From contig LADP01000020.1 of the NCBI GenBank assembly GCA_000961575.1, forward strand, positions 1 to 64,000: 64,000 nt of DNA. Reading direction: 5' to 3'. This document shows, piece by piece, positions 1 to 26,250 of this stretch (position 1 is the first letter of the stretch; every line of letters starts with the position of its first letter). The notes under the pieces were generated by a model, which did no database searches, was not told where the DNA came from, and was given only the letters and a program-made list of their open reading frames with translations. The stretch is from Peptococcaceae bacterium BRH_c8a (GTDB lineage: Bacteria; Bacillota; Desulfotomaculia; Desulfotomaculales; Desulfallaceae). A program made the position numbers and the translations under genes.

Positions 1-7
1 TACCCAA

Positions 8-79
8 ATGCGTCGTTGGTTTTCCGTTTTAGTTATGGCATCATTCATTCTGTCGAGCATCGCCCGTTGCCGCTGGTAG
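8..79 (+). CDS. Predicted 23-aa hydrophobic microprotein, array copy 1
   Basis: Short ORF beginning MRRW, with a hydrophobic core at about residues 5-19 (FSVLVMASFILSSIA) and ending RCRW before TAG. The charged ends around a short hydrophobic stretch would suit a membrane-inserting peptide. Its ribosome binding site would lie just outside the window, but copies 2 and 3 show AAAGGAGG seven to eight bases before the start. The family is not recognised. Type I toxin-like peptides are one possible comparison; a non-translated RNA repeat is the alternative. Confidence 0.5.
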   Translation: MRRWFSVLVMASFILSSIARCRW

Positions 80-136
80 GACTAGACAAATTGTAAGTTG
101 GATTGATTAACTAAACTAACAAAGGAGGTTACCCAA

Positions 137-208
137 ATGCGTCGTTGGTTTTCCGTTTTAGTTATGGCATCATTCATTCTGTCGAGCATCGCCCGTTGCC
201 GCTGGTAG
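137..208 (+). CDS. Predicted 23-aa hydrophobic microprotein, array copy 2
   Basis: Identical in nucleotide and peptide sequence to the ORF at 8-79. It is preceded by AAAGGAGG at 121-128 with good spacing to the ATG at 137. The intact ribosome binding site in front of every complete copy is the main reason to think it is translated. Function unknown. Confidence 0.55.
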   Translation: MRRWFSVLVMASFILSSIARCRW

Positions 209-266
209 GACTAGACAAACTGTAAGTATGGATTGATTAACCAAATTAACAAAGGAGGTTACCCAA

Positions 267-338
267 ATGCGTCGTTGGTTTTCCGTTTTAGTTATGGCAT
301 CATTCATTCTGTCGAGCATCGCCCGTTGCCGCTGGTAG
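267..338 (+). CDS. Predicted 23-aa hydrophobic microprotein, array copy 3
   Basis: Third identical copy, with AAAGGAGG at 251-258 and ATG at 267. Sequence after its stop (from about 341) no longer matches the other units. A strong hairpin at 461-496 lies 120 bp downstream and could end the array transcript. Function unknown. Confidence 0.55.
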   Translation: MRRWFSVLVMASFILSSIARCRW

Positions 339-460
339 GGATTTTAAAACGATATTAAATAGGAGGTTATTTGTTCACAAGTGATGTACATACATAATAT
401 GTCATATAAGATTTTTGTTATTGCAAGGAGAGCTAAATCAAATAAACCTTTTTATAATAC

Positions 461-1429: not shown

Positions 1430-1705
1430 TCATCCCGCTTTAACCAAACTAAAGAATTCATCGCCTAGTTTGGTTGCGCTACATATTTTGCTTTTGCCTT
1501 CCGTAGAAATCTCTACCAGTCCCAGTGCATATAACTGCATGATTATGTGGTCCAGAACGGCCCGTTTGACCCGGGCGGTTAGTGAGAGTTCTTCTTTGTT
1601 CATGCTGCCTTGTTGTAATAGCGCATGTAATACCCTTTCGGCTTCTTCCGGCAGTCTCTCGTTAGCCTTGAGCAGAAAGTCAGACAGACTGGTTGTTGAG
1701 ACCAT
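1430..1705 (-). CDS. Small winged-helix DNA-binding protein
   Basis: 91 aa. The pattern of helices and a short hairpin (RVLHALLQQGSMNKEELSLTARVKRAVLDHIIMQLYALGLVEIST) resembles a single winged helix of the ArsR/MarR type that fills almost the whole protein. No metal-binding cysteines or effector domain are seen. AGGAGG lies 13 nt before the ATG, a rather long spacing. It is monocistronic, between its own terminator and the hairpin at 1774-1807. The regulated gene is unknown; the adjacent Crp-type regulator and HdrD-like gene are the nearest candidates. Confidence 0.7.
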   Translation of the reverse strand: MVSTTSLSDFLLKANERLPEEAERVLHALLQQGSMNKEELSLTARVKRAVLDHIIMQLYALGLVEISTEGKSKICSATKLGDEFFSLVKAG

Positions 1706-6426: not shown

Positions 6427-6432
6427 AAAAAT

Positions 6433-6465
6433 AAACCCGGGGCAATATGCCCCGGGTTTTTTTTA
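6433..6465 (+). terminator. Rho-independent terminator of the ene-reductase gene
   Basis: GC-rich stem AAACCCGGGGC / GCCCCGGGTTT with a 5-nt loop, running into eight T. It is convergent with the minus-strand gene ending at 6484 and may serve both. Confidence 0.9.
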
Positions 6466-6483
6466 AGGTCTATGCCGTTAGTT

Positions 6484-7089
6484 TTACAGCAGGATAGAAT
6501 GCTGGTAGGTTAGATCGGTAAACATATCCGCATGGTGTTTGGAAACGTTTTTGCCAACACGAACCATGAGCATATTTGCCTGGTGCTCGAGGATTTCGGG
6601 ATCGTCGGTGTGACGCCTTTTGAAACCAACCGAACCAAAAACCTTTTTTAGCATGTCCCGGTATTGCCAGACGTTAAGGCCGCTGTTTTTTAAATCCCAG
6701 TGCCAGTTAAACTCGGTGGTGATAATAATATATTCTTCTAAAGCCTGGTTTTTAAAAGCTTCCGCCAGCAGCGCCTTGGCTAAACCATTTTTTTGCCAGT
6801 TTTGACTTATTTCTATGGCTCCCAATTCAAGTAGGCGCGGGTGTCTAATCCAGCGGCTAAATTCGCTGGGATAATGAAATAATACATAACCAACTATTTT
6901 TTCATCTATTTGAGCTATATAAACCAGACCCTCGGACAAATTGGCAATTTCCATTAGCGCTTCCTTTTGACGCAGGGGAGATCTGAAATTACCCAGTCCT
7001 GTGTCTATGTCCATTAACTCCAGTTTGGCCTGAGAAACCGGTCCTTCTAAATTTACTGTACCTCTGTCGGTTGTTAATTGCTTAGTCAT
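6484..7089 (-). CDS. acuA: AcuA-like GNAT acetyltransferase
   Basis: About 201 aa. The sequence resembles Bacillus AcuA over its length: NLEGPVS near the N-terminus, the central ELGAIEIS and acetyl-CoA-binding WQKNGLAKALL, then ITTEFNWHWDLK, VWQYRDMLKKVF and a C-terminal MLMVRVGKNVS. In Bacillus subtilis AcuA acetylates the active-site lysine of acetyl-CoA synthetase AcsA and switches it off. No acs, acuB or acuC gene lies beside it here, so the substrate is inference from the family. The start at 7089 is preferred over 7107 because GGTGGTGG lies just before it. Confidence 0.85.
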   Translation of the reverse strand: MTKQLTTDRGTVNLEGPVSQAKLELMDIDTGLGNFRSPLRQKEALMEIANLSEGLVYIAQIDEKIVGYVLFHYPSEFSRWIRHPRLLELGAIEISQNWQKNGLAKALLAEAFKNQALEEYIIITTEFNWHWDLKNSGLNVWQYRDMLKKVFGSVGFKRRHTDDPEILEHQANMLMVRVGKNVSKHHADMFTDLTYQHSILL

Positions 7090-7295
7090 AGCCACCACCA
7101 CTTCCATAATTTTAAAGAAGATAAACGAAATATCGGTACAAACCGTCTGGTTTAACGGTATGGTTTTTAAAAATATTCTGAATAAATATCGTTAATCCTG
7201 CCAGATTGAATTATTTTTATTTTTAATTCCCTGATTCCTGCCCAAAGAAATGGCTAAAAACAGGGAATTGTTTTCTTGTTTACAGTATTTACCGT

Positions 7296-8648
7296 TCAAT
7301 TCCAGTTGATGTCATGTTTTTGTGAGCGATATAACAGAGCGGATCTGGTTATGCCAAGCAGTTGGGCCGCTTTGGTTTGATTACCACCGCTCTTTTCCAA
7401 GGCTTTTAAAATCAATTCTTTCTCCAAGCCTTCGAGTGATATCCCGCTATCCGGAAAATCAACCACCACATCGCTTGAAGACCGCTGTGGGGCGTAAAGT
7501 TCCCTGGGCAGGTGCTCAGGTTCTATTTCATTCCCTCGGCAAATAATGGCAGAACGTTCAATTATGTTCTGCAGTTCCCGTACGTTGCCCGGCCAATGAT
7601 AATTGCATAGTAATTCCATGGCCTCGAGCGATATTTTCTCTACCTGATAAACATGGCCATATTTTTGTATAAAATGTTTGGCCAACAATGGAATATCTTC
7701 CTTGCGTTCCCTTAAGGGCGGCAGATGGATATGAATGACGTTTAAGCGGTAAAAAAGATCTTCCCGAAAAGTGCCTTTTTTAATGGCCTCACCCAGCTCC
7801 CGGTTAGTGGCGGCAATGACTCTTACATCAACGGAAAGTGTTTCAGTGCCGCCCACGCGTTCAAAAGACTTTTCCTGCAGCACCCTGAGCAATTTGGCCT
7901 GCATGTTTAGAGACATCTCAGCTATTTCATCAAGGAAAATAGTGCCTTTGTCCGCCAGTTCAAAACGGCCGAGTTTGCGTGCGGTTGCGCCGGTAAAGGC
8001 ACCACGCTCGTGACCGAAAAGCTCGCTTTCCAGGAGTTGTTCCGGCAGGGCGGCACAGTTAATCGGAATAAACGGCTTATTGTGTCGCGGGCTGTTTTGG
8101 TGTATAGCTACCGCCGCCACTTCCTTGCCGGTGCCACTTTCGCCGGTAATAAGCACACTGGCATTACTGTGTGCCACTCGCTCAATAAGAGCGATGATGT
8201 CAAGCATGATTTTGCTTTGGGCTATAATGTTGCCGTATTTACCTGTTAATTCCGAACGCAAAAAAGTAACCTCAGTTTCCAGTTGGATTACCAGCAAGTT
8301 CTGTTTGATTACCAGTTTCAGTTCTTCCAGGTCAAATGGCTTGGTGATGTAATCCGCAGCACCGATTTTCATTGCTTCAATGGCTGTTTCTATAGTCCCG
8401 TGCGCGGTTAACATAATAATCGGCAGCTTGGGATTTATCGCTTTGGCTTCTTTAAGGACCTCCAGACCGTCCATGTCGGGCAGGCGCAGGTCAAGGATAG
8501 TTAGCGATGGAGATTCTTCGCGGATTAAATTTAAACCGTCACGGCCCCGGTAAGCCACCTCTGTTTGGTAGCCTTCCTGACGCATAGCCCGATCCAGCGC
8601 CCAACACATATGCTCTTCGTCGTCAATGATCAGTATTTTAGGAACCAC
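7296..8648 (-). CDS. NtrC-family sigma-54-dependent response regulator
   Basis: About 450 aa in three domains. The receiver domain has an acidic pocket (IIDDEEH) and phospho-acceptor Asp in TILDLRLPDMDG. The AAA+ domain has Walker A GESGTGKE, the sigma-54-contacting GAFTGA motif, Walker B GTIFLDEIAEM and an ATNRELGEA sensor region. The C-terminal Fis-type HTH is GGNQTKAAQLLGITRSALLYRSQKH. Because GAFTGA is intact it should activate sigma-54 promoters. The GTG at 8648 is chosen as start (GGGGGG six bases upstream); a GTG at 8657 and an ATG at 8672 are alternatives. It overlaps the upstream kinase gene, so the two are co-translated and form a two-component pair. The likely target is the divergent exporter operon at 10840. 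Confidence 0.95.
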   Translation of the reverse strand: MVPKILIIDDEEHMCWALDRAMRQEGYQTEVAYRGRDGLNLIREESPSLTILDLRLPDMDGLEVLKEAKAINPKLPIIMLTAHGTIETAIEAMKIGAADYITKPFDLEELKLVIKQNLLVIQLETEVTFLRSELTGKYGNIIAQSKIMLDIIALIERVAHSNASVLITGESGTGKEVAAVAIHQNSPRHNKPFIPINCAALPEQLLESELFGHERGAFTGATARKLGRFELADKGTIFLDEIAEMSLNMQAKLLRVLQEKSFERVGGTETLSVDVRVIAATNRELGEAIKKGTFREDLFYRLNVIHIHLPPLRERKEDIPLLAKHFIQKYGHVYQVEKISLEAMELLCNYHWPGNVRELQNIIERSAIICRGNEIEPEHLPRELYAPQRSSSDVVVDFPDSGISLEGLEKELILKALEKSGGNQTKAAQLLGITRSALLYRSQKHDINWN

Positions 8649-10206
8649 CCGTGTCACCCCCCGTTTTTGCAACTAACGGTAAATTAACGGTAAATCGTGT
8701 GCCCGATCCAATCGTGCTGTCGACATTTATATGACCGTCGTGCGTTTTAATGATTTGGTGGCTGATAGATAATCCTAGCCCCGTACCGTATTCACGGGTT
8801 GTAAAAAACGGATCAAAGATACTGGCTATTTCTGTGGGTAAGATACCCGAACCGGTATCTTCAAATACAATATTAACCCAGTCGCTGTCATGTCCCGTAC
8901 AGATGATCAACTTACCTCCCTCAGGCATGGCCTGCACGGCGTTAAGAATGATGTTCACAAAAACCTGCTTAATCCTTTCAGCATCAACCTCGGTAAGCGG
9001 CAAATCCTGATCCAACATTTTTTCCAGTTTGATATTGTGCTGACGAAGCATTGGTAAAGTAAAAACCAGAACCCTTTCTATTAATGAATTAATATTGGCA
9101 CTTTGCACCATATGTTTGCTGGGGCGACCGAAATCCAACAACTCCTGAATCACCCTGTTCTGACGTTCAATTTGTTCCTCGATAACTTTAAAATATTCGT
9201 GGCCTACAACTGCTTTTTCCAGGTCTTTCTCCATTAGTTGCACCGTGGTTTTGATTATGCCAATGGGATTGCGCAACTCGTGAGCTACTCCGGTTACCAG
9301 TCTCCCCAGAGCGGCCAGCCTTTCGGAGCGCCTTAATTCTTCCTCCAGTTTTTCCTTTTCCGCAAGCGATACCGCCATCCTGTTGATGGCTATCGCTATT
9401 TCCCCCGGTTCTCCGGCCAGTGTAGGAATCTGGTTATGAATGTCTTTTTCCATTGTGCCGAGTCCCTTTTTAATTACACTCACGCTGCTGGATAAATTGT
9501 GAATTACAAACAGCGCCCCCATTGCGCCAATAAGCACGGCAAATAAAGTAAAATAACGGGTAATAGCACGGAAATGCCGGCTCTGGGCAAATATGGGGTG
9601 AATGCGTTCGTCTGCCCAGGCCACAGCCGCTAGTTCACCGTTGACATGTACAGGCATAAGGTACTCATAAGTTTCGTCATCAAGACTGCTGGTAAGGCGC
9701 GCCAGTGGTTGACCGCTGGCTGCTACCGCAATCAGTCCGCTTTTGGCTTCCTCTTTGATGCGTTCCTCCCTGGCCTCTTGTTCCGATGGATCCAGTGACC
9801 GGTATTGGTGCAGGAAACCCTGCACATAAATTTGACCGGTTTCAGGAATGTATAAACCGAATCTTACACCCAGGTTGCTCAGCACCAGCGGTTTGGTAGC
9901 CTCATTAAAAGCCTCTCGCAGGTATGACGCTTTGCTTATGGAGTTTAAAGAGTCATACTGTAAATTATTTTGTTTCATATAATAGTCGATGTTTTTTTGA
10001 ATATCCGGTATGACAACGGTTTCAATAACCGATCCCAGTTTATCCTCCCTTTCCTTTAACATGGCTTCGTCACTCCGGCTGGCAAAAAAGATATCGTATA
10101 GTATTACCAACACGGGTATAAGTAGGAGGGTGGCTATAACAATAAGAAACTGGAACCTTAAACTTTTGCCATCAAAAAAAGTAAAAATGGTTTTGGTTTT
10201 TTCCAT
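8638..10206 (-). CDS. Membrane sensor histidine kinase
   Basis: 522 aa. TM1 lies at about residues 18-38, followed by an extracytoplasmic sensor region to ~212, TM2 at ~213-236, a HAMP-like linker, a HisKA domain with phospho-acceptor His309 (GVAHELRNPIGII), and HATPase_c with N box VNIILNAVQAM, G1 DTGSGI and G2 GTGLGLSI. The extracytoplasmic domain is of single-Cache size and its ligand is unknown. The 3' end overlaps the NtrC-type regulator gene, its presumed partner. The ATG is preceded by AAAGG motifs. The position opposite a TauE/SafE exporter suggests sensing of a transported sulfur or organic anion, but this is inference. Confidence 0.92.
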   Translation of the reverse strand: MEKTKTIFTFFDGKSLRFQFLIVIATLLLIPVLVILYDIFFASRSDEAMLKEREDKLGSVIETVVIPDIQKNIDYYMKQNNLQYDSLNSISKASYLREAFNEATKPLVLSNLGVRFGLYIPETGQIYVQGFLHQYRSLDPSEQEAREERIKEEAKSGLIAVAASGQPLARLTSSLDDETYEYLMPVHVNGELAAVAWADERIHPIFAQSRHFRAITRYFTLFAVLIGAMGALFVIHNLSSSVSVIKKGLGTMEKDIHNQIPTLAGEPGEIAIAINRMAVSLAEKEKLEEELRRSERLAALGRLVTGVAHELRNPIGIIKTTVQLMEKDLEKAVVGHEYFKVIEEQIERQNRVIQELLDFGRPSKHMVQSANINSLIERVLVFTLPMLRQHNIKLEKMLDQDLPLTEVDAERIKQVFVNIILNAVQAMPEGGKLIICTGHDSDWVNIVFEDTGSGILPTEIASIFDPFFTTREYGTGLGLSISHQIIKTHDGHINVDSTIGSGTRFTVNLPLVAKTGGDTGGS

Positions 10207-20778: not shown

Positions 20779-20796
20779 CTAAGGAAAATTAAATAC

Positions 20797-20966
20797 ATTG
20801 CGCAGCAGGTGCCCCACGGGGAGAATAGGGAACCGGGTGAGAATCCCGGGCGGTCCCGCCACTGTAACCGGGGTAGCCCCCGCCGAAACGCCACTGGGTA
20901 AAACCGGGAAGGCGGTGGTACGGGCGATTGATTCGGAAGCCAGGAGACCTGCCTGCTTGCGCGATG
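20797..20966 (+). ncRNA. Cobalamin (B12) riboswitch
   Basis: Recognised by the ordered conserved blocks: GGTGCCCC at the start, GGGAACCGGGTGAGAATCCCGGGC..., GTCCCGCCACTGTAACCGGGG, GCCACTGGGTAAAACCGGGAAGGC, and the B12 box GAAGCCAGGAGACCTGCC near 20936-20953. Flanking TTGCGCA and TTGCGCGA can close the P1 stem. It is followed by a terminator hairpin and then cobT. B12 binding is expected to favour termination or block expression, so cobT is repressed when cobalamin is plentiful. Confidence 0.95.
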
Positions 20967-20997
20967 CGCCGTTTTTGGGCATTTAAGTGGATGATGG

Positions 20998-22968: not shown

Positions 22969-23043
22969 TGGTGGACGAGAGGGGATTCGAACCCCCGGCC
23001 CCCGCGTTGCGAACGCGGTGCTCTCCCACTGAGCTACACGCCC
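22969..23043 (-). tRNA. tRNA-Ala(CGC)
   Basis: 75 nt with encoded CCA. Acceptor GGGCGTG pairs with CTCGTCC except for one T6:T67 mismatch, and it has the G3:U70 pair that marks alanine tRNAs. The D arm GCTCAGTGGGAGAGC, anticodon stem CCGCG/CGCGG with loop TTCGCAA (anticodon CGC, reading GCG) and T arm GGGGGTTCGAATCCCCT are all present. The terminator follows directly, and a promoter lies inside the end of the neighbouring gene. Confidence 0.93.
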
Positions 23044-26161: not shown

Positions 26162-26250
26162 GCCGGAGTGGCGGAACTGGCAGACGCACGGGACTTAAAA
26201 TCCCGCGAGTGGTGACACTCGTACCGGTTCGATTCCGGTCTTCGGCACCA
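26162..26250 (+). tRNA. tRNA-Leu(TAA)
   Basis: 89 nt including CCA. Acceptor GCCGGAG pairs with CTTCGGC. The anticodon loop CTTAAAA gives anticodon TAA, and the long variable arm (GAGTGGTGACACTC) is the class II type expected for leucine. T arm CCGGTTCGATTCCGG. Confidence 0.97.

Follow-up and report, generated by a model that had tools for sequence, protein, structure and literature searches.

A tandem array of unannotated 23-codon micro-ORFs linked to HD-GYP and DUF5317 genes in Peptococcaceae bacterium BRH_c8a

Tandem array and flanking genes

The analyzed window comprised 64,000 nucleotides of the host genome G000 (contig C26, positions 1-64000). Its base 1 is a contig end and lies inside an array of micro-ORFs. 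The features at this end of the window were as follows.

8-79, plus strand: micro-ORF copy 1, 23 aa and a stop codon, with its ribosome binding site (RBS) cut away by the contig start
121-128, plus strand: RBS AAAGGAGG of copy 2, 8 nt before the ATG
137-208, plus strand: micro-ORF copy 2, identical to copy 1
251-258, plus strand: RBS AAAGGAGG of copy 3, 8 nt before the ATG
267-338, plus strand: micro-ORF copy 3, identical, the last intact copy of the array
361-368, plus strand: AGGAGGTT past the last copy, without an intact ORF
455-502, no strand: inverted repeat with 18-nt arms (94% complementary) and a 12-nt loop
515-1225, minus strand: Crp/Fnr-family regulator gene (PF00027, PF13545), convergent to the array

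All three ORFs are 72 bp long and encode the peptide MRRWFSVLVMASFILSSIARCRW, with unit spacings of 129 and 130 bp. The only reason that copy 1 has no RBS is that the contig begins at base 1. The AGGAGGTT motif is probably a relic of one more unit. The inverted repeat probably acts as a terminator between the array and the convergent regulator gene; a similar hairpin was found at the equivalent place in one relative, and a strict terminator scan did not flag the repeat in the window. Across genomes of the host's family, the Crp/Fnr gene is the right-hand neighbor of the array by synteny. A 91-aa winged-helix protein with weak TFIIE-alpha/TrmB similarity (1430-1705, minus strand) adjoins this gene. 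Elsewhere, the window contains a cobalamin riboswitch (20790-20971) and tRNA genes (22972-23043 and 26162-26247).

Five further units with identical coding parts form the end of another contig of this genome, C46, where the following genes precede them.

C46:64301-69896, minus strand: Opp genes
C46:70457-71704, divergent from Opp: HD-GYP gene
C46:71709-72272, between the HD-GYP gene and the array: DUF5317 gene

The four complete C46 linkers were identical to one another. They end in GGAGGCT, compared to GGAGGTT in both C26 linkers, and because of this difference the array holds at least seven distinct copies; seven is a minimum since the first C26 copy could be the last C46 copy. In relatives, DUF5317, the micro-ORF and the Crp gene follow each other on one contig, which supports the placement of C46 and C26 on the two sides of a single array. 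The host order is thus Opp, divergent HD-GYP, DUF5317, array, inverted repeat and convergent Crp/Fnr gene, with the OppABCDF-type importer lying 0.6 kb upstream of the HD-GYP gene. Assemblies tend to break at such loci: in G006, G060, G078 and G104, breaks or N runs are located within or next to the micro-ORF copies.

The sequence-only reading had described identical 23-codon micro-ORFs in units of about 130 bp, each complete unit with its own RBS, and these points were borne out. Its remark that the linkers already differ holds on the window side but not on C46, and the leftward extension that it proposed revealed a longer array.

Conservation and genomic linkage

To evaluate coding, substitutions between non-identical copies within arrays were counted. 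There were 39 synonymous and 8 nonsynonymous differences, with a synonymous share of sites of 26% (p = 3e-16). Between species, pS exceeded pN in every pair. This pattern, named beforehand in the sequence-only reading as a mark of coding, shows the unit to be a gene and not an RNA repeat, that is, a real, unannotated 23-residue peptide gene under purifying selection. Conservation of the peptide across other species, together with the same 39:8 ratio, excludes a chance ORF. Copies resemble each other more within than between genomes, and the tandem copies appear to be homogenized. None of the seven peptides searched had a Pfam or NCBIfam match above the curated cut-off, in agreement with the earlier statement that no named family was known.

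Homologues were found throughout the host order, where tandem copies are frequent, and also across the phylum, which answers the search in relatives suggested earlier. Relatives in the host's family carry MRRWFPVLVIAAFILSSIAGNRW, MHRWFSLLVLVAFILSSIAGNKW and others. Another family of the order carries MRWIPYSLLVIMSLIIASGAGHRW or MRWIYSLVVVLSLVVASGAGHRW, also in tandem, with 2, 3, 4 and 5+ intact copies in its arrays.

DUF5317 was present in 24 of the 113 genomes of the host order. Of these 24 genomes, 21 had a micro-ORF match, compared to 2 of the 89 genomes lacking DUF5317 (Fisher p = 1.4e-17). The three DUF5317 genomes without it were G062 and G103, whose contigs end just past OppF at the site of the array in sister genomes, and G048, in which no HD-GYP gene was seen beside DUF5317. 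Of the two matches outside the DUF5317 genomes, G092 has an HD-GYP gene cut by the contig end, and the G057 match is weak and lies inside a 239-aa frame. Weak profile matches within larger ORFs of G069, G023, G174 and G057 were treated as chance.

In the phylum, 60 loci were chosen from DUF5317 matches, and the micro-ORF was found at 47 of them, mostly with E values of 1e-13 to 1e-4 (best reversed-sequence control, E = 0.07). Some of these loci contributed seeds to the profile, and both the profile and the pattern were tuned on this micro-ORF family, so the 47 are likely members and not an independent test. An earlier fixed pattern was positive at about 17 of the 60 loci and at none in reversed DNA or control loci. 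The micro-ORF therefore almost always adjoins a membrane HD-GYP phosphodiesterase gene and DUF5317. A second subfamily (MKKVFFWLTVASMVLAAIARAPWR) adjoins a large HD-GYP gene at L109 of G008 (6427-9353), where the order is DUF5317, micro-ORF and HD-GYP, and also at L174, L176 and L179. Genes this short tend to escape annotation, and this one is kept in most of the sampled HD-GYP and DUF5317 loci of the phylum.

Two family micro-ORFs without nearby HD-GYP or DUF5317 genes are possibly orphan copies: one near a contig end (L156 of G256, 6855-6938) and one beside an FtsH-like gene (L163 of G131, 549-620).

The partner protein in the host consists of a MASE9-like membrane part and an HD domain (PF13487, E = 3e-41), with intact HD-GYP motifs HDLGK and HHERIDGKGYP. 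The Opp binding protein is of the peptide-binding type; its best PDB matches were DppE and OppA, and PrgZ was matched too. The DUF5317 model (pLDDT 75, pTM 0.64) gave no PDB match with E ≤ 0.001, and for that reason no function was assigned to DUF5317 by fold. Thermotoga maritima carries DUF5317 and served as a control in the DUF5317 search; a literature search on its TM0504 peptide found nothing. The open-licence literature yielded no paper on DUF5317 and none joining HD-GYP with a micropeptide or peptide pheromone.

The position of the micro-ORF varied among loci. The array of the second family is located downstream of OppF, where it is equipped with a promoter-like TAGACA-17-TATAAT of its own as well as a terminator-like hairpin; HD-GYP and DUF5317 are divergent from OppA. 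In G083, as well as in G060 (where two contigs are involved), the micro-ORF is located between DUF5317 and OppA; it precedes OppA in G072 and G092 and lies between OppF and HD-GYP in G256. The commonest order in the phylum sample was micro-ORF, HD-GYP and DUF5317, most often with the micro-ORF 10-100 nt before HD-GYP. OppABCDF shares the locus in most modules of the host order, and an OppA match occurred at only 5 of the 60 phylum loci. Since the position varies while the linkage holds, the product most likely acts in trans.

Two micro-ORFs were preceded by c-di-GMP riboswitches. The distance from the end of the aptamer to the micro-ORF is about 110 nt in G030 (c-di-GMP-I; 57.4 bits, gathering 35) and about 90 nt in G028 (c-di-GMP-II; 59.9 bits, gathering 53.5); a hairpin and U-run follow the aptamer in both. 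These genomes contain 4 and 16 such aptamers, respectively. By a rough estimate, a correctly oriented aptamer is expected within 200 nt upstream of a given gene at about 3e-4 to 6e-4 per locus, and over the roughly 50 loci scanned, two such cases are therefore unlikely to be chance. The Rfam search found no c-di-GMP riboswitch at the window array.

Other RNA elements were also noted. The G030 micro-ORF is followed closely, on the opposite strand, by a tmRNA gene (L108, 1849-2201). In G070 (L099, 2588-2672, minus strand), a c-di-GMP-I aptamer with a terminator-like hairpin lies just downstream of DUF5317, and no family ORF follows it on the same strand. A Pelotomaculum genome has two Moco (molybdenum/tungsten) riboswitches in tandem (L098, 13025-13322).

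Peptide anatomy and candidate functions

All 78 distinct peptides have a basic N-region. Position -3 is small (Gly, Ser, Ala or Val) in 78/78, and position -1 is Ala in 72, Gly in 4 and Ser in 2; the cleavage site was placed by a pattern requiring small residues, so these counts describe the alignment and are not a test of it. An invariant Ala is also present in the unbiased alignment (A19). The tail has 4-5 residues in 65 peptides (e.g., GHRW, GNKW and NFKW) and contains Trp in 63, as Lys/Arg-Trp in 44. From this anatomy, the peptides look like minimal Sec signal peptides that end shortly after a signal peptidase I site. Some could be cut after LA instead, yielding GGANFKW-type heptapeptides. 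The uncharged stretch of 14-25 residues (median 18) could equally fit a short transmembrane helix, and hydrophobic length fails to separate a pheromone from a membrane subunit. The claim that a membrane-directed coding peptide is amplified in tandem was right. A lipoprotein precursor was also considered and rejected: a Cys near the end occurs in a few species only (RCRW, GCKW and MCRW), with N, H or another residue elsewhere.

The favored interpretation, to which we give about even chances, is a secreted pheromone precursor whose gene is amplified to raise the dose and whose action is linked to c-di-GMP turnover. The ribosome would make MRRWFSVLVMASFILSSIA-RCRW in vivo, and this pre-peptide would insert into the membrane in the manner of a minimal Sec signal peptide. 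Cleavage near SIA|RCRW may follow, catalyzed by signal peptidase I (or by an intramembrane protease), so that a C-terminal peptide of 4-8 residues ending in Trp would exit the cell as the signal. The membrane part of the HD-GYP enzyme would sense this signal, possibly together with DUF5317, and/or the linked Opp system would re-import it, and c-di-GMP breakdown would be altered. Tandem copies would raise the peptide dose, and in some species the c-di-GMP riboswitch on the micro-ORF would close a feedback loop. The pheromone is preferred because of the tandem dosage, the presence of Opp through most of the order, the cleavage-site pattern and the c-di-GMP-controlled expression in two species. 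Thus, the dosage or signaling role listed as an option in the sequence-only reading is the one favored by the evidence.

The strongest competitor, a serious but less probable one, is an uncleaved one-helix membrane subunit or regulator of an HD-GYP/DUF5317 complex. It would pack through the conserved GGA/SGA/SIA face, set phosphodiesterase activity and adjust stoichiometry by copy number, in the way that other small membrane proteins act on sensor kinases or transporters; in that case, the conserved GGA could serve helix packing instead of marking a cleavage site. The HD-GYP/DUF5317 linkage is phylum-wide and tighter than that to the lineage-specific Opp, the commonest place is directly 5' of HD-GYP, the hydrophobic stretch is able to span the membrane, and a terminal Trp suits the membrane interface. 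However, a subunit needs neither high dosage (at least seven copies here; 4, 5+ and 3+ elsewhere) nor the free-standing promoter of one family nor an Opp linkage, and the small residues at -3 and -1 fit signal peptidase.

Regulatory leader peptides or an RNA-level repeat, in which the ORF or RNA matters and not the peptide, are very unlikely. The commonest location shortly before HD-GYP is that expected of a leader ORF, but in the host order the micro-ORF is placed behind the genes or forms a separate transcription unit, and constraint acts on the peptide. The RNA-only repeat raised by the sequence-only reading was likewise not supported by the codon-type substitutions or by the fold of the array unit, whose stability is below that of shuffled sequences (z = +1.42), and the window array had no Rfam match. 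Still less probable is an antimicrobial or other secreted peptide without a signaling role. The cationic Trp-containing end, signal-peptide anatomy and dosage would suit it, but no immunity or export gene was seen traveling with the micro-ORF, the partner is a c-di-GMP phosphodiesterase, and c-di-GMP riboswitches precede the gene in two species. The least probable, despite a short hydrophobic peptide with charged ends in tandem copies, is the possibility, mentioned in the sequence-only reading, of an Ldr/Ibs/Fst-like type I toxin array repressed by antisense RNA: a promoter scan of both strands of the window array, weak as such scans are, found 2 against 1.9 expected by chance, with antisense promoters no more than chance, and the micro-ORFs are the last genes of an operon, have strong RBSs and keep their HD-GYP/DUF5317 partners in operon position across the phylum.

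The product is thus probably an unrecognized peptide signal or a tiny regulatory subunit, and both main readings agree that it is an unrecognized component of the HD-GYP/DUF5317 module. We more tentatively propose, with somewhat less than even confidence, a phylum-wide peptide signaling system in which an unannotated 23-30-residue precursor would give a secreted 4-8-residue Trp pheromone, with a membrane HD-GYP/DUF5317 receptor pair, c-di-GMP control, riboswitch feedback in some species, and tandem arrays and Opp in one order. A signal would tie peptide communication directly to c-di-GMP in sulfate reducers and syntrophs, in which cell-cell signaling is little studied, and would provide an input for DUF5317 and for a class of orphan membrane HD-GYP enzymes. 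A subunit would add an overlooked component to a widespread second-messenger enzyme.

Comparison with known systems

The type I toxins Ldr, Ibs and Fst are short hydrophobic peptides that are at times repeated; the present locus differs in having no evident antisense RNA, conserved operon partners and a phylum-wide distribution. MgrB, SafA and KdpF are one-helix proteins acting on a membrane enzyme, and they are not known to be tandemly amplified. Unlike them, the micro-peptide has no family match found, tandem copies and a linked importer. In the DSF/RpfG system, a cell-cell signal leads to c-di-GMP breakdown by an HD-GYP enzyme. However, the signal there is a fatty acid read through a separate RpfC kinase, whereas a ribosomal peptide and a membrane-bound HD-GYP enzyme are proposed here.

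The precursors of SHP/Rgg and Phr (RRNPPA) signals are tiny, with a basic N-terminus, a hydrophobic core and a C-terminal mature peptide, and RRNPPA pheromones of Firmicutes are re-imported by Opp/Ami, with repeated signals termed 'chatterers' (PMC9765709, PMC7564271). Some Rap genes have two adjacent propeptide genes, and up to 6 peptide copies occur in one propeptide (PMC9765709). The micro-peptide resembles them as a short precursor with a basic N-region, a hydrophobic core and a putatively cleaved tail. Most host-order modules hold Opp, with a binding protein of the peptide type, and this system may re-import the peptide. It differs in that copies lie within one propeptide in Rap/Phr, whereas whole ORFs are repeated at least seven times here. 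It is not classed as SHP or Phr because no TPR-type RRNPPA receptor gene adjoins the micro-ORF: the window array is flanked by DUF5317 and Crp/Fnr, and the neighbors in relatives are HD-GYP, DUF5317, Opp or other genes. By analogy, the micro-peptide would work most like SHP or Phr pheromones, with an HD-GYP phosphodiesterase and DUF5317 in place of the TPR/HTH receptor encoded beside the pheromone gene in those systems.
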